Of a DNA stretch of 64,000 nt, positions 3,815 through 12,782 are shown piece by piece; within the stretch, counting starts at the first letter, position 1, and the number at the start of each line of letters is the position of its first letter. The stretch is taken from the NCBI GenBank assembly GCA_036405135.1, contig DASWYF010000024.1, forward strand, positions 1-64,000. Reading direction: 5' to 3'. Both the position numbers and the translations under genes were made by a program. This DNA is from Verrucomicrobiia bacterium. GTDB taxonomy: Bacteria > Verrucomicrobiota > Verrucomicrobiia > Limisphaerales > JAEYXS01. Under the pieces are notes generated by a model. The model saw only the letters and a program-made list of their open reading frames with translations, was not told the origin of the DNA and searched no databases.

Positions 3815-6800
3815 ATGTCCACTCACCCGCCAGAGGAAGAGTATAAATATTGGGCGTTCATCAGCTACAGCCACGCCGATCAGGCATGGGCGGACTGGCT
3901 GCATAAATCGCTGGAAACCTATGGTGTGCCGAAGGTTCTGGTGGGTCGCACCTCCAAGGTAGGTGTCGTTCCCAAGCGGGCATACCCCATTTTCCGCGAT
4001 CGTGATGAACTGCCAAGTTCGGCTGACTTGGGCGAGAAGTTGACCCAAGCGCTGATGCAATCGCGCTTTCTTATCGTAGTCTGCTCCCCGCGCGCCGTGG
4101 CTTCCCGGTGGGTGAATGAGGAGATCAAGTCCTTCAAATCCATTGGTCGCGAAGACCGGGTGTTGTGTCTCATCGTCGATGGTGAACCTTACGCTTCCGA
4201 GCATCCTGAGTTGGGCCTGGAAGAGTGCTTCCCGGAACCGGTGCGTTACAAGGTGGATGCGAACAAGCGCATCACTGAGGAACGCACGGAACCGATCGCG
4301 GCGGATGCGCGACGCGGCAAGGATGGTCGTGAGAATGCGAAGTTGAAGTTGCTCGCCGGCATGTTCGGCGTGAACTTCAGCGACCTGAAGCAGCGTGATG
4401 CAGAGCGCCGCCATCGCCGCATGCAACTCGCGATGGTGGTCGTCATGCTGGTGATGTGCGGCTTCCTGGTGCTGGCTGGTCAGGCTATTTTGGCGAAGAA
4501 GGAAGCAGAAGGGAATCTCGTCCAGGCGAAGATTCAGGAACAACGCGCCAACGAGGAGCGGCAGAAGGCTGACCGTGCGCGTGAGATGGCGGAGAAGGCC
4601 CGTAACGACGCGGTGAACGCCCTGAAGAGCGAAGAAATCCAACGCAAAGCGGCAGAGGCGGCGAATGAAGCGGAAAAACTGGCCAAGAGTGAGGCTGAAA
4701 AGTCCGCCAAGCTCGCCACCGAGCGCCTTGCCGAAACCGAGATAGCGCGTCGCGAGGAAAAGAAACAGCGCGAGGCTGCAGACGCGGCCAAGCAGGCTGC
4801 GGAAGAAGCGGCGACAGTCGCCCAACGGGCGCGTGATGCTGCCCAGGAAAGCGAGCGCAAAGTTTCCCGCGCCTTGTCCGTTTCGTACTTCGTCGAAGCC
4901 AGCCGTCTCATCGGGGACAACCGCCAGCCGCAAGGCATGGCCTATCTCTCCCGCTCTCTGAATCTGGATGCAGACAATGCTTCGGCGCAGGCGCGGGTGT
5001 TGTCCCTGTTGGCGAACCAGAACTGGCCCTTGCCCCGCTATGGAATTTTGAAGCACGAAGCTCCGGTGCAGATGACCCGTTTCAGCCCGGATGCCAAGAA
5101 ATTGCTGACCGTGGCGGGCAATGATGTCCTGGTCTGGGATGCCAGCGGCAAAGAACCCAAATTGCTGAAAACGCTCAAGCATTCCAAGCCGGTGCGTTAC
5201 GCCGCTTACAGCCCGGACGGCAAGCTGTTCATCACCACCGCGGATGATGGCAAGGCGCAGCTCTGGAATGCGGACGATGAATCGAAGGTAGGCCCCGCTT
5301 TGGATCACAAAGATTGGGTATATGCGGCACAGTTCAGCGCGGACAGCAAACTGGTCATCACGGCCTCTCATGATAAGAGCGCACGTGTCTGGCACACAGC
5401 GACGGGGCAGCCGGCCACGGATTACTTACGGCAGAGCGGGTCCGTCCGCTGGGCATCTTTAAGTGGCGATGGTAAATTCGCGGTGACGACATCGGACAGC
5501 ACGGCACAGGTCTGGGACGTGGCGAAAGGCCAGCCCTATGGTCCCGCACTGACCCATGATGGCGGGGTCTATTATGCGGCTTTCAGCCCGGATGGGAAAT
5601 TCATCGCCACCGCATCTGGTGACAAGACCGCGAAGATATGGGGCATGAGCAACACCAACGCGGCCCAGGTGTTAAAGCATAACGACTGGGTAAATCAGGT
5701 GAAGTTCAGTCCTGACGGGCGCTATGCGGTGACCTGTTCAAGCGATGGGACCGCCAAAGTCTGGGAAGTGCCGACAGGCAAGCAACTCGGCCAGACGATC
5801 CAGCACGGGGCGGCCATCAACATGGTGGCCATCAGCCCCAACGTGCGGATGATCGCCACGGCGTCGGCAGACCGCACGGCCCGATTGTGGGATCTCAAGA
5901 CGGGCCTGCCGCTCAGCGAACCGATGGAACTGAACGGCGAGGTGAAGTGGGTGGATTTCAGTTACGACGGCCTTTGGCTCAGCGTTGCGGGTGCGGATGG
6001 TTCGGTGCGTGTTTGGAGCGCGGTTGACCGGCGGCCCCTTTCACTCGCGCTCAACCACGACACCTCGCTGTTTCAAGCCGTTTACAACCGGGCGGGTGAC
6101 CGTGTGCTGACGGTGGCTGATGACCGGACGGTGAGGGTTTGGGACACAGCCACGGGCCAGCTCATCGGCACGCCGATGAAGCACGATTATCGTGTGACCA
6201 CGGCGATCTTCAGTCCCGATGGGAAGTTTGTGGCAACGGCATCAGACCGTTATGCACGAGTTTGGAAATCGGATACAGGGGAAGTCGTGGGACAGCCGAT
6301 GATGCATGACCGTCAGGTGAACACGGTCGCTTTTCGGAATGACGGGGTGGTGCTTTTGACGGCATCCGAGGATGCCACGGCGAAACTTTGGAATGCGGCG
6401 GACGGAAAGCAGATCGGTGCCACCATGCAGCATGACCGGGCCATCCGCATGGCTTCGTTCAGCTCCGATGGCAAGCTGGTGCTGACGGCCTCGGCTGACA
6501 AGACGGCAAAAGTCTGGAATGCCGCCACCGGCCAGCCCAAGGGTGCTGTGTTCTCGCACAAAGGCGAGTTGCGGGCCGCAGTGTTCAGCCCTGATGGACG
6601 CATGGTGGCTACGGCCTCAGATGACCGTACGGCGCGGGTTTGGCTGACAGACAGCGGAGAAGCGCTTACGCCGGAGTTGCGGCATGATGCACCCGTGAAC
6701 GCGGTGGCTTTCAGCACCAAGCAACGGTTTGTGGTGACAGTCTCTGATGACCGCACAGCCCGTGTCTGGACCGCCGATGCAGGCAAGCCGGCAGCGGAAC

Positions 6801-8011
6801 CTTTGCGGCATGATTCGGAAGTCAAGGCCGTGAGTTTCAGCTCCAATGGATATTTCCTGGTCACCGTTTCGAAATCTAACGCCGCCATGGTATGGGACAC
6901 GGCCAGTTGGAAGCCCGTGGCAGAACCGCTTCAGCATGGCGGTCTGGTGCGTGATGCAGGATTCAGCCAGGATGGACGGTTCATCGTGACTGCTTCCGAG
7001 GACAAAACCGCGCGTCTCTGGCTAGTGGCCCTGCCGGGCACAGTGCCCGAGTGGTTCCGCCAGTTGACCGAAGGTGTGGCCGGTTATCAATTGGGTGAGG
7101 AAGGTGGTGCCAATGCATTGCCTGACTCGGCAGTCAGCATCGCAACCGTGCGGAACGCGATCAGTAATGCTCCAGCGGAAGATATGTTTGCCAACTGGGC
7201 CAAATGGTATCTGAGTGAACCAGTGGATCGCTCCGTCATGGCATTTGCCAAACTCCCGACCAGGGATTACCTCGCACAGCGGCTGGCAGCAGATGATGCC
7301 GCGATCGACAACGTGCTGCTCGTTCAGCCGAATAATGCACTGGCTTTGGCACGATATGGCCGCAACTTGAAAGATGCCGGTGCGGCGGACTATTTCACAA
7401 GCCTGGCCGTCAAGTATGAGCCGCAAAATCCCGAGGCGCTCTGGCTACGGGCGGGTGTCTTGCAGGCCGCCAACCAGTTCGAGCCGGCTTATGAACTGAT
7501 GAGCAAAGCCATGTCCGTTGACCCCAGGGCAACGGCTGTGATCGGCAAGGAGGGGGCCGAGATCGATCTGCGGAATCGTGATAATAATCTTTCCCGCGGT
7601 TGGTTGCCGAAAGGCTGGGTGGATCGCAACCGCACATTGGCCATGAGTGTCGAATACACCAAGCTCCCGGAAGGCCCCACGGCGGGCACAACTGCGCTCG
7701 GTATCAAGACCACCGGCAGTGTGACTGTGCAAAGCCAGCTTGCCGGCCCACGTTTTGTAGTTCGCAATCGAGAGCGGCAGACAGTCCGTATCTGGGCCAA
7801 ATCCGACAAAAATACTTCATTCCTCCTGTCGGCACGCTCTTTCCTTGACCCGAATGAACGGGCCTTTGATCTGAATATCCGTCCTACGGACAAGTGGCAG
7901 GAATTCAAAGTGACGGTGACACCGCAAAAGGATTTTGCCGGTGAAGTGCTGCTGCTCATCCCGGGAGATGGTTCCGTGCAGATTGGCGGCATCCAGGTGA
8001 CGAAGGAATAA
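3815..8011 (+). CDS. Giant TIR - transmembrane - coiled coil - 16x WD40 - TPR protein
   Basis: A 1398-aa multidomain protein. Residues 11-150 form a TIR domain (WAFISYSHAD, FRDRDELP, FLIVVCSPRAVASRWVNEEI). Glu102 or Glu103 after Trp99 sits where TIR NADases carry the catalytic glutamate. One membrane helix (about 205-226) follows, then a long Ala/Glu/Lys-rich coiled coil (227-355). Sixteen WD40 repeats of about 41 residues (about 408-1071) come next, most with H..V..A.FSPDG and TA.VW signatures, enough for two propellers. A TPR-like segment (about 1160-1235) and a C-terminal beta-sandwich resembling a carbohydrate-binding module complete it. Bacterial TIR proteins of this build are known and may act in signalling or defence. 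No partner gene stands next to it: maf with its terminator is upstream, the lipid transporter downstream. The domain order would put the propellers outside the cytoplasm if the TIR is inside. Confidence 0.85.
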   Translation: MSTHPPEEEYKYWAFISYSHADQAWADWLHKSLETYGVPKVLVGRTSKVGVVPKRAYPIFRDRDELPSSADLGEKLTQALMQSRFLIVVCSPRAVASRWVNEEIKSFKSIGREDRVLCLIVDGEPYASEHPELGLEECFPEPVRYKVDANKRITEERTEPIAADARRGKDGRENAKLKLLAGMFGVNFSDLKQRDAERRHRRMQLAMVVVMLVMCGFLVLAGQAILAKKEAEGNLVQAKIQEQRANEERQKADRAREMAEKARNDAVNALKSEEIQRKAAEAANEAEKLAKSEAEKSAKLATERLAETEIARREEKKQREAADAAKQAAEEAATVAQRARDAAQESERKVSRALSVSYFVEASRLIGDNRQPQGMAYLSRSLNLDADNASAQARVLSLLANQNWPLPRYGILKHEAPVQMTRFSPDAKKLLTVAGNDVLVWDASGKEPKLLKTLKHSKPVRYAAYSPDGKLFITTADDGKAQLWNADDESKVGPALDHKDWVYAAQFSADSKLVITASHDKSARVWHTATGQPATDYLRQSGSVRWASLSGDGKFAVTTSDSTAQVWDVAKGQPYGPALTHDGGVYYAAFSPDGKFIATASGDKTAKIWGMSNTNAAQVLKHNDWVNQVKFSPDGRYAVTCSSDGTAKVWEVPTGKQLGQTIQHGAAINMVAISPNVRMIATASADRTARLWDLKTGLPLSEPMELNGEVKWVDFSYDGLWLSVAGADGSVRVWSAVDRRPLSLALNHDTSLFQAVYNRAGDRVLTVADDRTVRVWDTATGQLIGTPMKHDYRVTTAIFSPDGKFVATASDRYARVWKSDTGEVVGQPMMHDRQVNTVAFRNDGVVLLTASEDATAKLWNAADGKQIGATMQHDRAIRMASFSSDGKLVLTASADKTAKVWNAATGQPKGAVFSHKGELRAAVFSPDGRMVATASDDRTARVWLTDSGEALTPELRHDAPVNAVAFSTKQRFVVTVSDDRTARVWTADAGKPAAEPLRHDSEVKAVSFSSNGYFLVTVSKSNAAMVWDTASWKPVAEPLQHGGLVRDAGFSQDGRFIVTASEDKTARLWLVALPGTVPEWFRQLTEGVAGYQLGEEGGANALPDSAVSIATVRNAISNAPAEDMFANWAKWYLSEPVDRSVMAFAKLPTRDYLAQRLAADDAAIDNVLLVQPNNALALARYGRNLKDAGAADYFTSLAVKYEPQNPEALWLRAGVLQAANQFEPAYELMSKAMSVDPRATAVIGKEGAEIDLRNRDNNLSRGWLPKGWVDRNRTLAMSVEYTKLPEGPTAGTTALGIKTTGSVTVQSQLAGPRFVVRNRERQTVRIWAKSDKNTSFLLSARSFLDPNERAFDLNIRPTDKWQEFKVTVTPQKDFAGEVLLLIPGDGSVQIGGIQVTKE

Positions 8012-8058: not shown

Positions 8059-8916
8059 GTGGTTCAGACGTCATCCACCCATTCCGACCGCAATTCCTGG
8101 TTCCGGCTGCCCGGACGGATGATCCGGCTGTATCTGGATCTGGTGGGCAGAGCAATCATCGGGTTCGCGGAGACAGCTCGCGGGTTGGGAGCCTTCGCGC
8201 TCATCACCTTGGGAACCACCCTTTCCAAGTTCGGCTTCGCCAAGGCTGTGATCCGTCCGCTGATCTTCAGCCAGATTTATGAATCGGGGCTTAAACTGCT
8301 TCCCATGATTGCGTTTCTGGGCGTAGCGTTGGGGTTTGTCATCATCGGACAGACGGTGGCGCTGCTGACCAGCGTGGGCGCACAGGGTTTCACGGGACCG
8401 GTGATGGTCGCCGTGGTCGTTCGCGAGCTGGGACCTCTGACTACGGCGCTGATTGTGCTGGCTCGCGTGGGCACCACTACGGTCATCGAACTGGGCATGT
8501 CCCGCGCCACGGGTGAGATCGAGGCATTGGAGGCTTTGGGCATCGATCCCATCCATCTGCTGGTGGTGCCGCGGGTGATCGGAAAGGCCGTAAGCATCTT
8601 TGCGCTGACGATCTATCTGATCCTCATCGCACTGATCAGCGGTTACGCCTTTGTGATGGTGCAGAACGTGCCGCTGACACCGGCCGCATATGTTGAGCAG
8701 CTTGCCATGGCGTTGACCTGGCAGGATTTTGTGCTGGTGGCTCTAAAGACACTTTCTTTCGGAGCGATCATCGCGGTCGTGACCTGTTATCAAGGATTGG
8801 CCCAGCCATTGCGACTTGAGCAAGTCGCCCCGGCGACCTCCCGCGCAGTGGTGGCGGGGACCATCGGTTGTGTCCTGATAGACGCCATTTTCATCACGCT
8901 ATTCTTGTTCCTCTAA
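8059..8916 (+). CDS. mlaE: MlaE-family ABC transporter permease
   Basis: A 285-aa integral membrane protein of the MlaE/YrbE family, the permease of MCE-type lipid transporters that move phospholipids between inner and outer membrane. Typical stretches are FLGVALGFVIIGQ, VVRELGPLTTALIVLARVG and ALGIDPIHLLVVPRVIG, the last two being the cytoplasmic coupling region. Four to five membrane helices follow in the usual pattern. The GTG at 8059 gives a 20-residue extension. The in-frame ATG at 8119 (MIRLYLDLVG) is an equally good start. The gene lies 3 bases upstream of the ATPase, and the MCE protein comes third, the standard Mla order. Confidence 0.9.
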   Translation: MVQTSSTHSDRNSWFRLPGRMIRLYLDLVGRAIIGFAETARGLGAFALITLGTTLSKFGFAKAVIRPLIFSQIYESGLKLLPMIAFLGVALGFVIIGQTVALLTSVGAQGFTGPVMVAVVVRELGPLTTALIVLARVGTTTVIELGMSRATGEIEALEALGIDPIHLLVVPRVIGKAVSIFALTIYLILIALISGYAFVMVQNVPLTPAAYVEQLAMALTWQDFVLVALKTLSFGAIIAVVTCYQGLAQPLRLEQVAPATSRAVVAGTIGCVLIDAIFITLFLFL

Positions 8917-8919
8917 GCC

Positions 8920-9717
8920 ATGGCTGACACCCTGCCCAAAAAAGAATCATCGGTCTGTGTGAAGCTGGAAGCAGCGGATCTGGGCCTGGAAGGCTGGGAT
9001 GACAAGCCGCTGTTGAAGGGGGTGAATTTGCAGGTGAACACCGGCGAATTCTGGGTGGCAGGGGGGATGCACCGGAGCGGCAAGAGCACGTTGCTGGCTT
9101 CCGTGGCCATGTTGCAGAAGCCTTTGGCCGGAAAAATCGAGGTCTTCGGTGTGGACCCCTGGAAAGTAGACGAGGCGAAATTGATGAAGCAACGCTTGCG
9201 CGTGGGGCTGGTCTTCGAGGCTGGCGCACGCTTGCTGCACAAGCTGTCTATCGCCGAAAATGTGGCGTTGCCACTGTGCTATCATCAAGACTGCCGGATG
9301 GAAGAGGCACAGGAACGGGTTGCCGAACTGCTCAAGTTCACGGGCGTGGAAACCATGGCCCGTCAACTGCCAGGTGGACTGACGCGGACCTACCGCCAAC
9401 GGGCCAACCTGGCACGCGCATTGGCCATGTCACCAGAGTTGCTCTTACTGGACAATCCGCTCGCGGGCATGGATTTCAGCGAGCGTGCCTGGTGGCGCGA
9501 GACGGTAACTGACTTGGGGCGAGGACATCCGATTGTCGGGAACCGTCCGATGACGATCATCGTGGTGACGAACCACTTGACCCCCTGGGTCGCAGAAGAT
9601 CGGCATTTTGCCTTGTTGCATGAGAACACATGGCGGCAGATCGGCGGAATGGCGGAATTGCACGCCAGCCGTGAAACGTCCCTGCGCGATGTGCTGGATG
9701 AAAAATTAAAAGACTGA
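8920..9717 (+). CDS. MlaF-like ABC ATPase with degenerate catalytic motifs
   Basis: A 265-aa ABC ATPase between the MlaE permease and the MCE protein, so by position the energiser of the lipid transporter. Walker A is intact (GMHRSGKST, Lys55). Other motifs depart from the canon. The Q-loop residue is Glu100 (LVFEAG). The signature reads LPGGL rather than LSGGQ. Walker B ends Asp178-Asn179 (LLLLDNP) in place of Asp-Glu. The switch region reads VVTNHL, so Asn218 or a shifted His219 replaces the usual His. The second ABC ATPase of the window, at 40778, has every motif intact, so this is not a sequencing trend. ATP binding is likely; hydrolysis may be slow or absent. The reading frame is clean and ends normally. 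Confidence 0.85.
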   Translation: MADTLPKKESSVCVKLEAADLGLEGWDDKPLLKGVNLQVNTGEFWVAGGMHRSGKSTLLASVAMLQKPLAGKIEVFGVDPWKVDEAKLMKQRLRVGLVFEAGARLLHKLSIAENVALPLCYHQDCRMEEAQERVAELLKFTGVETMARQLPGGLTRTYRQRANLARALAMSPELLLLDNPLAGMDFSERAWWRETVTDLGRGHPIVGNRPMTIIVVTNHLTPWVAEDRHFALLHENTWRQIGGMAELHASRETSLRDVLDEKLKD

Positions 9718-9725
9718 TCAATCTT

Positions 9726-10964
9726 ATGGCCTTGCAGGATCTGACACCCCGGCTGCGTACCCGGTTAAGCCGTCTCGAATGGACGGTGGGCCTCTTTGTG
9801 GCGTTGGCGACTTTGCTGTTGTTGACGGGCTTCGCCCTTTACTTCCGGAACACGGCGGAGAAGCGCGGCTGGTTCAAAACGAAGGTGACGTATTTCACGT
9901 TTGTGAGCTCAGCGGCGGGGCTAAAAGTGGGTGATCCCATCAAGCTCATGGGATTCGAAGCGGGCAATATCACTGCCATCCGCGCCCAGCCGCCGGAGGA
10001 TGCCTGGTTCAACGTCTATGTGGAATTTGAAGTCATGGAGCCGCACTTCGGCTATCTCTGGACGACCGGTTCCGTGGCAAAAGTGGCGGCTGACGGTTTT
10101 CTCGGAAATCGCTACATCGAAGTGACCAAAGGCACCGGCGGCACGGCGACTTACGAGCAGAAACAGGTGACCAACTGGTTTTTCGGGCAACGAGTCAAGA
10201 CCGTCGCCACCTCCATCTGGAATCCCAATGCACTCGGAAAAGACAAAGGCGCCTACGAACCCAGAAAACTGGACTCAAAGTATTGGCTGCCCGTGGAAGA
10301 GGCCCCCGCCATCAATGACCGGTTGGAAAAACTCGCCAAACAGGTGGAAGATGCGCTGCCGAACATCCTGAACCTGACGAACCAGCTCGCAGCCACGCTG
10401 AACAGCAGCAGCGCGGCGATGTCGAATGCGAACAACATCGTGGTGGATATCCGTCCCGTGGCCTCCAACATCGTCTTCATAACCGAAAACCTCAAAAATC
10501 CCAAGGGGTCTTTGGGTGAATGGCTGATCCCGACGAATATCAGCGGTGAACTGGAACTCACCATCACCGCCGCCAAGAACACGTTGACGAACGCCAATGT
10601 GGTCATGACGCAACTGGACAAGACATTGGTCACGGCGAACACCACCGTCGGTTCCGTGAACCAGATCGTGACAAATGCGAACGATCATGTGGCATTGCTG
10701 GTCTCAAACTTGAACGTGTCCCTGACACACCTTGCTTCCATCACCAGCAATCTGAACGCGCAGGTCCAGGCGAACACGAACATCCTCTCGGAAATATCCT
10801 CCACTGTGACGAATGCCGACATCATGCTGCAGGGACTGCGCAAACATTGGTTCCTGCGGGGTGCCTTCAAAGAAGACAAGCCGAAGGATGAGAACAGGAG
10901 CAAGGGAACCAATGCGCCCACACGCGGGCCCTTGATACCCAAGGTGCGGGAACAGTGGCAGTGA
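9726..10964 (+). CDS. MCE-domain (MlaD-like) lipid transport protein
   Basis: A 412-aa protein with one N-terminal membrane helix (about 22-43) and an MCE domain at about 52-135 (AAGLKVGDPIKLMGFEAGNI, VAADGFLGNRYIEVTKG). The remaining 250 residues are a long helical, Asn/Thr/Ser-rich region with heptad-like spacing of hydrophobics, as in larger MCE proteins where such helices build a periplasmic channel. With the MlaE permease and the ATPase it makes a three-component inner-membrane lipid transporter. It begins 8 bases after the ATPase and ends 3 bases before the convergent gene. Confidence 0.85.
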   Translation: MALQDLTPRLRTRLSRLEWTVGLFVALATLLLLTGFALYFRNTAEKRGWFKTKVTYFTFVSSAAGLKVGDPIKLMGFEAGNITAIRAQPPEDAWFNVYVEFEVMEPHFGYLWTTGSVAKVAADGFLGNRYIEVTKGTGGTATYEQKQVTNWFFGQRVKTVATSIWNPNALGKDKGAYEPRKLDSKYWLPVEEAPAINDRLEKLAKQVEDALPNILNLTNQLAATLNSSSAAMSNANNIVVDIRPVASNIVFITENLKNPKGSLGEWLIPTNISGELELTITAAKNTLTNANVVMTQLDKTLVTANTTVGSVNQIVTNANDHVALLVSNLNVSLTHLASITSNLNAQVQANTNILSEISSTVTNADIMLQGLRKHWFLRGAFKEDKPKDENRSKGTNAPTRGPLIPKVREQWQ

Positions 10965-10967
10965 GAC

Positions 10968-12782
10968 TTACTGTTTCAAACCAGTTGCCACCGTCTCCTG
11001 TGCCCATTCCGGTTTTTCAGTCTCGAACATCACGCGCTGTCCGGTAAGCGGATGATTGAGACTCAGCTTCCACGCGTGCAGGCACATGGGCCGGTCATTC
11101 ACGCTGATGGTCTGCGTGTCGCCCAGATTTTTCCCAGGGAGATACACTTGATCACCGCTGATCGGATGCCCCAGTTCCCACAGATGCACGCGGATCTGAT
11201 TGGTGCGCCCGGTGAGCGGACGTGCTTCCAGCAGCGAGGTGCCATCAGGCAGTCGGGTAACGACCCTGAATTCAGTTCGCGAAGGAAGCCCGTTGGGTTC
11301 ATCTACTTCCCGATGGCCGACTTCACCGGGTTCAATGCTGATGGGGGCATCACAGGAAAAAGAGTTTTCCTTTGGATGGCCCAGAGCTTTGACAAGATAC
11401 GTCTTCTCCACCTCCCCGCGGGCGAACTGCGGTTGGAGCCTGCCTGCGAAATGGCGTGTGCGGGTGAAGATGATGAGGCCGGTGGTATTGGCATCCAGAC
11501 GATGCGCCGGGCGCGGTTTCTGCGGATGGTAAACAGTGTGGAGTATGCTGAGCAGCGTGTTGCGATTGAATCGTCCGCTCGGATGCAGAGGAAGAGGGGC
11601 GGGCTTGCTCACCACGATGATGGCTTCATCTTCATGCATGATGCGGATGTCTGCCCGCACATCGGGTTCGGTGATCGCCGGCAGCAGGTGCAGATAGCGT
11701 TCACCCGTGCGGACAACATGTTCGGCGGTCACAGGCAGACGCAGGTTGTTCAGGATGCGGCCTTGTGACAGCAAACCGAGCCATTCTTCACGCGGCACAT
11801 GCCGCAGGATGGCGCAGAGGAAATCGAGAACGGTCTGTCCGTCGCAGGCAGGAGGAACACTGACGGGGCGGTGGTTGTCATAGGCCACACTGCCGGGCAG
11901 GGGAGTGGTGGCCTTGAAAATATCCGCATGCCGTTTGGCGATGCTTTCGGCCATCTGCTCCTCGGTCGTTTTGAAGCAGTATGGACAGGACTTGGATGGG
12001 ATATATCGTGCGTCTTCCTGGTCTGCACCGGTCAAAGGTGTAAGGCAGTTGAAGCACTGGGATGAATCCGTTTCCTGCAATGCCGGGTCAACACCGACGC
12101 GTTGATCGAAGACGAAGCATTCGCCGTCGTAATGCTCCCCGCCGCATTCTTCGAAGTATTTCAGGATGCCGCCATCAAGCTGGTAAATCTGGGAAAAACC
12201 TTCCCGCTCCATGAAAGGGCCGGCCTTTTCACAACGGATGCCGCCCGTGCAGAACATCACGATGGGCTGCTCCTTCATGCTGTCGGGCAACTGCCGCACG
12301 GCATCCGGAAACTGGCGGAAATTATCGATGCCGATGGGCAAAGCTTTGCGGAAGGTGCCGAGCTTCACTTCGTAATCATTGCGCGTATCAAGCAGCGTGA
12401 CGGGGCGACCTTCATCCAACCATTGCTTCAGCTCTTTCGCGGAGAGCTTGGGTGAAGTCCGTCTGGCCGGATTGATACCTTCCACTCCGAACGCGATGAT
12501 CTCCTTTTTGATGCGGACAAGCATCCGGGAAAAAGGCTGGTGATCGCTTTCACTGTATTTCGGCGTGAGCTTTTCGAGGCCGGGAATGCTGCGAAGCCCG
12601 GCGACCAGTTCATCGATATCCGCGCGCTCACCAGCTACGAACATGTTGATGCCCTCGGTGCTCAGGAGAATGGTGCCTTTGAGACCCTTGGACTTGCATT
12701 GGGCGATGAGGTTTTCCCGCAGCGATTTGAGATCGCTGAGCTCGGCAAACTGATACGTCGAAATGTTCGTGATAACGGCCAT
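10968..12782 (-). CDS. TrhO-type tRNA uridine hydroxylase fused to RluA-type pseudouridine synthase
   Basis: A 604-aa fusion. Residues 1-290 match TrhO (YceA): an N-terminal acylphosphatase-like fold, then a rhodanese domain with the active Cys178 in MFCTGGIRCEKAGPF. Two Cys pairs (243/246 and 266/269) could bind zinc. TrhO hydroxylates U34 of tRNA with oxygen. Residues 310-604 hold an S4-like region (about 315-368) and an RluA-family pseudouridine synthase with catalytic Asp430 in AHRLDANTTGLIIF and the later GRTNQIRVHLWELGHPI motif. One continuous frame encodes both, so one polypeptide modifies RNA in two ways. The pseudouridine target is unknown. A minus-strand ATG at 12782 starts it; the neighbour at its 3' end is convergent. 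Confidence 0.9.
   Translation of the reverse strand: MAVITNISTYQFAELSDLKSLRENLIAQCKSKGLKGTILLSTEGINMFVAGERADIDELVAGLRSIPGLEKLTPKYSESDHQPFSRMLVRIKKEIIAFGVEGINPARRTSPKLSAKELKQWLDEGRPVTLLDTRNDYEVKLGTFRKALPIGIDNFRQFPDAVRQLPDSMKEQPIVMFCTGGIRCEKAGPFMEREGFSQIYQLDGGILKYFEECGGEHYDGECFVFDQRVGVDPALQETDSSQCFNCLTPLTGADQEDARYIPSKSCPYCFKTTEEQMAESIAKRHADIFKATTPLPGSVAYDNHRPVSVPPACDGQTVLDFLCAILRHVPREEWLGLLSQGRILNNLRLPVTAEHVVRTGERYLHLLPAITEPDVRADIRIMHEDEAIIVVSKPAPLPLHPSGRFNRNTLLSILHTVYHPQKPRPAHRLDANTTGLIIFTRTRHFAGRLQPQFARGEVEKTYLVKALGHPKENSFSCDAPISIEPGEVGHREVDEPNGLPSRTEFRVVTRLPDGTSLLEARPLTGRTNQIRVHLWELGHPISGDQVYLPGKNLGDTQTISVNDRPMCLHAWKLSLNHPLTGQRVMFETEKPEWAQETVATGLKQ

Follow-up and report, generated by a model that had tools for sequence, protein, structure and literature searches.

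A degenerate MlaF lineage in Verrucomicrobiota that may have given up its motor in a passive lipid conduit

We analyzed a stretch of 64,000 nucleotides from a Verrucomicrobiia bacterium (hereafter the window, meaning the whole stretch) and found in it three adjacent forward-strand genes related to those of Mla lipid transport systems:

8059..8916, + strand: MlaE-like permease of a divergent clade (PF02405, 174 bits; cut-off 22.5)
8920..9717, + strand: MlaF-fold pseudo-ATPase, 265 aa, open frame (PF00005, 68 bits; AlphaFold2 model; structural matches)
9726..10964, + strand: single-domain MCE (MlaD-like) protein, 412 aa, with long C-terminal helices (PF02470, 46 bits; cut-off 25)

The spacers between these frames are 3 and 8 bases, so that the frames almost touch, and the downstream neighbor lies on the opposite strand; thus, the three genes form one unit. 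An original prediction made from the sequence alone had described an mlaE-mlaF-mce order with a clean ATPase frame, and both points held: the 265-aa frame at 8920-9717 (+) is open and sits between the permease and the MCE gene. The permease scored below the TIGR00056 cut-off (126 bits versus 212). In total, the genome has three genes for MlaE and as many MCE domains of the MlaD type, and ordinary MlaF genes adjoin the other two MlaE loci. The search for another mlaF elsewhere in the genome, which the prediction had proposed as a check, therefore yielded two canonical paralogues outside the operon.

Just 5' of the operon, positions 3815-8011 (+) encode a protein of 1398 aa that is rich in WD40 repeats (12 stretches) and has a helical middle part and an N-terminus that looks TIR-like by eye. 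On the other side, at 10968-12782 (-), a single 604-aa frame comprises a UPF0176/rhodanese (TrhO-like) half and an RNA pseudouridine synthase half (Pfam PF17773, PF00581 and PF00849). Two RNA-modification activities thus seem to be fused in one frame, which looked unusual.

The product of 8920-9717 is predicted with high confidence to have the ABC nucleotide-binding-domain fold of MlaF. Its AlphaFold2 model, based on 76 sequences, reached a pLDDT of 94.1 and a pTM of 0.91. The best structural match, with a Z of 29.2 and an rmsd of 2.0 across 241 residues, was 7ch8_J, the MlaF of Pseudomonas aeruginosa, followed by 6xbd_I from nanodisc-embedded MlaFEDB, with a Z of 28.9 and an rmsd of 2.1 across 243 residues; other ABC ATPases scored close behind the MlaF chains, some of them tied. 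The motifs of the nucleotide site, as located by alignment, are as follows:

9061..9090, + strand: Walker A GGMHRSGKST, residues 48-57, with K55, intact
9208..9225, + strand: Q-loop LVFEAG, Gln replaced by E100
9379..9393, + strand: signature columns L154-T-R-T-Y158 (LTRTY) in place of LSGGM/Q (alignment with canonical MlaF)
9442..9459, + strand: Walker B LLLDNP, with D178 retained and N179 in place of the catalytic Glu
9559..9579, + strand: switch region IVVTNHL, with N218 in place of His

According to the original prediction, Walker A was intact whereas the Q-loop, signature, catalytic and switch residues were changed. Realignment of homologues left all four canonical features missing from the window protein. 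K55 of Walker A is in place, as is D178 of Walker B, and both the Glu in the Q-loop (E100) and the Asn that directly follows D178 (N179) were found where they had been described. The signature is indeed lost, but the string LPGGL (residues 150-154) had been mistaken for it: in an ungapped alignment with the canonical MlaF paralogues of the same genome, the true columns read LTRTY, and LPGGL begins four residues before them. Similarly, the switch His is lost but not displaced, since its column is occupied by N218, and H219 stands where canonical proteins have Asp.

We searched 58 genomes, the window genome and its relatives. A divergent mlaE orthologue was present in 47 of them (E about 1e-59 or better), clearly separated from the canonical MlaE paralogues (7e-29 or weaker), and an ABC ORF directly followed it in all 47. 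The signature was lost in every one of these 47 adjacent ATPases; Glu after Walker B was kept in 2, the Q-loop Gln in 3 and the switch His in 2. In contrast, the Q-loop Gln, LSGGM, catalytic Glu and switch His were all found in 22 of 22 canonical MlaF controls from the same genomes (2 from the window genome and 20 from relatives), which argues that the losses are not due to chance. Within the order, 175 of the 245 genomes contained the divergent MlaE. In a draw of 286 genomes from the class, 62 had it (E 1e-55 or better), of which 46 belonged to the order and 16 to other orders.

A larger set was assembled from the order relatives, the class loci and named contigs, the last being contigs with Verrucomicrobiota titles, including Limisphaerales, Pedosphaera and 'subdivision 3', some of them clearly mislabelled. 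Its 176 rows gave 130 distinct proteins after four partial proteins and duplicates were dropped. None of the four catalytic features was kept in 114 of these proteins, one was kept in 16, and at least two in none. Walker B Asp was present in all 130 and Walker A Lys in 126, with the full Walker A pattern [GSA]x4GK[ST] in 125; when the 262 columns were ranked by conservation, the P-loop Gly/Lys and the Walker B Asp came among the top 15. The Q-loop column contained Glu or Asp in 83 proteins and Gln in 6, its substitutes being varied (E, D, A, G, S, K, P). The residue after Walker B Asp was Asn in 96 and Glu in 6, the switch column was Asp or Glu in 92 and His in 4, and the signature Ser-Gly was absent from all 130, with Arg in 76 and Trp in 77 as new signature residues. 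The string LSGG did occur in 3 of the 130, each time away from the signature position. When relatedness was ignored, a salt-bridge test showed that an acidic Q-loop residue accompanied the signature Arg in 60 of 76 proteins, compared with 23 of the other 54; the corresponding association with an acidic switch residue was weaker (59 of 76 versus 33 of 54, p 0.05). Judged from these sequences, the nucleotide site has been preserved in one part and replaced in its hydrolytic part, and the window protein appears to be not an MlaF in the enzymatic sense, but a member of a conserved pseudo-ATPase family with graded losses.

The pattern of change agreed with the earlier suggestion of selection rather than decay. 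Beyond the order-wide conservation and the top-conserved P-loop Gly/Lys and Walker B Asp, the dN/dS ratio between the window genome (G000) and relative G002 was 0.061 for the pseudo-ATPase and 0.062 and 0.064 for the two canonical MlaFs, all of them rough values because dS was saturated (above 1 here, as in most pairs). The pseudo-ATPase pair G001-G002 gave 0.132, and two pairs yielded no value.

A related group was found in another class of the phylum. In a phylum-wide draw of 387 genomes, an MlaE match at 1e-45 was obtained in 31, 29 of them outside the window's class. The 29 out-of-class MlaEs form a second MlaE group. When 146 genomes of one other class were searched with a profile of this group, 75 proved to have it. 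We examined 20 of the 29 loci as a first batch (L226-L245). In all 20, the protein encoded after mlaE matched the ABC profile (E 2e-13 to 4e-28); Pfam ABC_tran matched 19 of the 20 among hits listed to E 1 (best 4e-10), and a profile-profile comparison with the window family gave E 8e-28 over 229 columns. None of these 20 ABC homologues has a P-loop. A second batch of 19 distinct loci from the same class, chosen to take in the most divergent MlaEs, contained a homologue in 17, again with no P-loop in any of the 17 (0 of 37 in both batches together). Of the first 20 proteins, one (L232) contains the letters LSGG, in its C-terminal region. The best-conserved stretch of the P-loop-less proteins, RGRIGRVFExxGWISNLDVDENITLAQRHHT, lies around the Q-loop, whose surroundings in ABC transporters face the coupling helix. 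The MCE proteins of the first batch have an N-terminal motif of their own (KPFKFRYVNEI), and a canonical MlaE is also present in each of the first 20 genomes. At the two remaining loci of the second batch (L258 and L261), no ABC homologue was recognized beside mlaE, and these may be further independent losses of the ATPase.

The divergent and second-group MlaEs grouped together against the canonical paralogues with a support of 100/99 in a tree of 39 of 82 rows (four long or divergent rows were dropped, then every second row of the larger groups), and with a support of 99 in a quick tree of all 82 rows; both trees are rooted by the paralogues only and carry a long-branch warning. In the ATPase tree, the canonical MlaFs (22) and the P-loop-less proteins (10) each formed a clade, and the pseudo-ATPases joined neither with support, so that only the MlaE tree unites the two groups.

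Two further conserved segments of the operon bear on what the pseudo-ATPase might be kept for:

8494..8574, + strand: MlaE coupling-helix segment GMSRATGEIEALEALGIDPIHLLVVPR, which would dock on the ATPase subunit; conserved in relatives
9726..9773, + strand: N-terminal motif MALQDLTPRLRTRLSR of the MCE protein, conserved and cytoplasmic, to which the pseudo-ATPase is proposed to dock; core LTPx[LI]RTR[LM]

The MlaE segment at 8494-8574 is what we take to be the coupling helix. This assignment draws in part on passages on the TM2-TM3 connection (PMC7790496). Outside the two genomes described next, the segment was recognizable in all 138 distinct relatives, in 125 by pattern and in 13 by eye (L073 being the weakest). 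Of 152 distinct MCE proteins, all but two contained the core of the MCE motif. The two without it come from G084 and G111, which are the two genomes available of one genus (drafts, with completeness of 95 and 99, respectively), and in both of them mce directly follows mlaE with no ATPase gene between (L207 and L206). A profile search of these genomes for the pseudo-ATPase found none: their best matches scored 137 (G084) and 130 bits (G111), compared with 283-288 bits for the true orthologues in two comparison genomes, and the four top ABC matches that were read all have LSGGQ or LSGGE. Each genome has a single MlaE, with no MlaF-like gene among the best matches read. The coupling-helix segment is eroded in G111 and deleted in G084. 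The joint loss of ATPase, coupling helix and MCE motif suggests that the pseudo-ATPase is what the helix and the tail hold. It also seems plain from these gene orders that mlaE and mce can outlive the pseudo-ATPase, on the evidence of one evolutionary event, and the function of mlaE-mce in this genus may have changed, given its single mlaE. The situation was different at loci L198 and L204, where no ATPase gene lies beside mlaE and an orthologue is present in the genome, apparently on the same contig.

The AlphaFold2 model of the MCE protein had a mean pLDDT of 76.0, with the MCE part mostly above 90 and the C-terminal helices at about 50-75. Helices were predicted at residues 196-255, 272-314 and 321-380, that is, about 160 helical residues past the MCE domain at low confidence. 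MlaC (PF05494) was detected in 2 of the 12 genomes searched, the window genome not being one of them. Taken together, the long MCE helices and the fact that MlaC was found neither in the window genome nor in 9 of the 11 others would make a bridge likelier than a shuttle. With regard to energy, passages of one study report that Escherichia coli MlaF carrying K47A or E170Q fails to complement, which is consistent with a need for hydrolysis in canonical Mla (PMC7367683). Passages of another describe lipid transfer from MlaD to MlaC as spontaneous and blocked by ATP hydrolysis, and present both the direction of Mla transport (inward or outward) and the role of ATP hydrolysis as debated (PMC10212509). 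If transfer from MlaD is spontaneous, a hydrolysis-free complex would be expected to be passive and, if anything, outward.

Our results are probably best explained by a non-hydrolysing MlaF-type scaffold in a second, ATP-hydrolysis-independent Mla/MCE lipid conduit. The pseudo-ATPase would keep the ABC fold (and, in the window's class, the P-loop) without the ability to run the hydrolysis cycle. It would act as a rigid cytoplasmic scaffold, clamping the MlaE dimer through the coupling helices and the MCE hexamer through the N-terminal tails, in a conduit that would operate in parallel with the cell's canonical, ATP-driven Mla systems, and lipids would move downhill, probably from the inner to the outer membrane, along the long-helix MCE bridge. 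We infer the architecture of this complex by homology, and likewise the lack of hydrolysis, the passive transport and its direction. The wider proposal, that an ABC lineage gave up its motor in Verrucomicrobiota, with a P-loop pseudo-ATPase, a P-loop-less scaffold and outright gene loss, and now forms a passive, probably outward conduit, is one to which we incline slightly. Of the three options in the original prediction (passive work, a second ATPase, or ATP as a structural ligand), the passive one is the best supported, since the P-loop is missing from sister systems and the entire gene from one genus. What counts against the scaffold reading is that the P-loop is almost universal in the window's class, where the nucleotide may matter, and that one catalytic residue is kept in 16 of 130 proteins. 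Given the retained P-loop, ATP may be a structural ligand in this class, and the conduit may also draw on another energy source, such as proton motive force or another ATPase.

Other explanations have to be weighed against the same data. The subunit could be a nucleotide valve that senses the energy state: ATP or ADP would bind at the P-loop without being hydrolysed, and this binding would open, close or stabilise the conduit. The retention of Walker A Lys and Walker B Asp as top-conserved columns alongside varying catalytic positions is what such a valve would predict; however, the signature, which contacts the nucleotide in trans, is lost in 130 of 130 proteins, the mostly acidic Q-loop and switch positions should be unfavorable near a gamma-phosphate, and the sister class dispenses with the P-loop, so that we regard a valve as unlikely. 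We consider it distinctly improbable that a canonical MlaF from another operon replaces the pseudo-ATPase or pairs with it, the latter then being merely regulatory. The conserved MlaE coupling helix and the two further MlaE loci with intact MlaF in the genome would allow this, but the pseudo-ATPase adjoins the divergent MlaE in 47 of 47 relatives, and G084 and G111 keep mlaE-mce with the single mlaE and no MlaF-like gene among the best matches read. Moreover, the window protein has neither the catalytic residues that act in cis nor the signature that acts in trans. According to the ABC dimer model, a mixed dimer would therefore have no composite site with both, and we rejected pairing with a canonical MlaF, the second option of the original prediction, on this argument.

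Hydrolysis by substitute residues, for example the signature Arg together with acidic Q-loop and switch residues, would be in line with the new consensus residues (Asn, Arg and Trp in 96, 76 and 77 of 130 proteins) and with the co-occurrence of Arg and an acidic Q-loop residue noted above, relatedness being ignored. Yet the Q-loop substitutes vary, the sister class has no P-loop, and E170Q alone is reported, in the passages concerned, to leave E. coli MlaF unable to complement (PMC7367683); such a cryptic ATPase is very improbable. Finally, ordinary decay of a redundant ATPase towards a pseudogene might be read from its loss in one genus and from its mean identity of 43.6%, compared with 62.5% for its permease (40 random pairs). 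Canonical MlaF is likewise less conserved than its own permease (about 66% versus 75%), however, the frames are open order-wide with a dN/dS of about 0.06 (dS saturated), the P-loop Gly and Walker B Asp are near-invariant, new consensus residues have arisen and the pseudo-ATPase is found in several orders of the class. Frameshifted copies were absent from most close relatives, and decay, already contradicted by these data, is scarcely credible.

With MlaF of MlaFEDB (E. coli, P. aeruginosa and Acinetobacter baumannii), the window protein shares the fold, the mlaE and mce neighbors, Walker A and the Walker B Asp; unlike it, it lacks the Q-loop Gln, signature, catalytic Glu and switch His, and no mlaC was found in the genome. 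The degenerate-site ABC transporters TAP, TmrAB and CFTR have lost the catalytic Glu and/or signature residues in one nucleotide site, the other site still working. In the window system, by contrast, the cis catalytic residues and the signature are lost in the same chain, which does not fit a heterodimer with one working site; both sites of the presumed homodimer would be broken, and in the sister class the P-loop is gone as well. MCE systems of the LetB/PqiB type are lipid conduits that are not known to have a dedicated ABC ATPase and that use LetA/PqiA membrane partners, whereas the window system retains MlaE and an MlaF-derived subunit. The three-gene mlaE-mlaF-mlaD order is shared by MlaEFD of Veillonella parvula, whose MlaD (419 aa, versus 412 for the window MCE protein) has been proposed as an envelope bridge and thus offers a published parallel (passages of PMC10665443). 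As described there, the V. parvula mlaE and mlaF closely resemble the model genes, unlike those of the window, and its MlaD ends in a beta-barrel that is said to be absent from PVC sequences; none was predicted in the window MCE protein. We found no earlier description of this pseudo-ATPase family in the open-licence literature searched.

The core observation of the original prediction thus holds and reaches further than was stated. If the scaffold reading is true, these bacteria would provide a natural counterpart of the laboratory-made hydrolysis-dead Mla complex, and a hydrolysis-free Mla beside a (mostly) ATP-driven paralogue in the same genomes would turn the debate on ATP hydrolysis into a direct comparison. 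They would be ABC transporters in which the whole ATPase dimer is dead, with degenerate, P-loop-less and gene-loss forms all living, and the coupling helix and the MCE tail are flagged as the contacts for which the dead subunit would be kept.

One locus outside the 130-protein set, L208 (in genome G066), appears to represent a different route of degeneration from that of the pseudo-ATPases. Its ATPase homologue is fast-evolving and keeps the Glu after Walker B and the Q-loop Gln, and its Walker A is broken (GAKKS).
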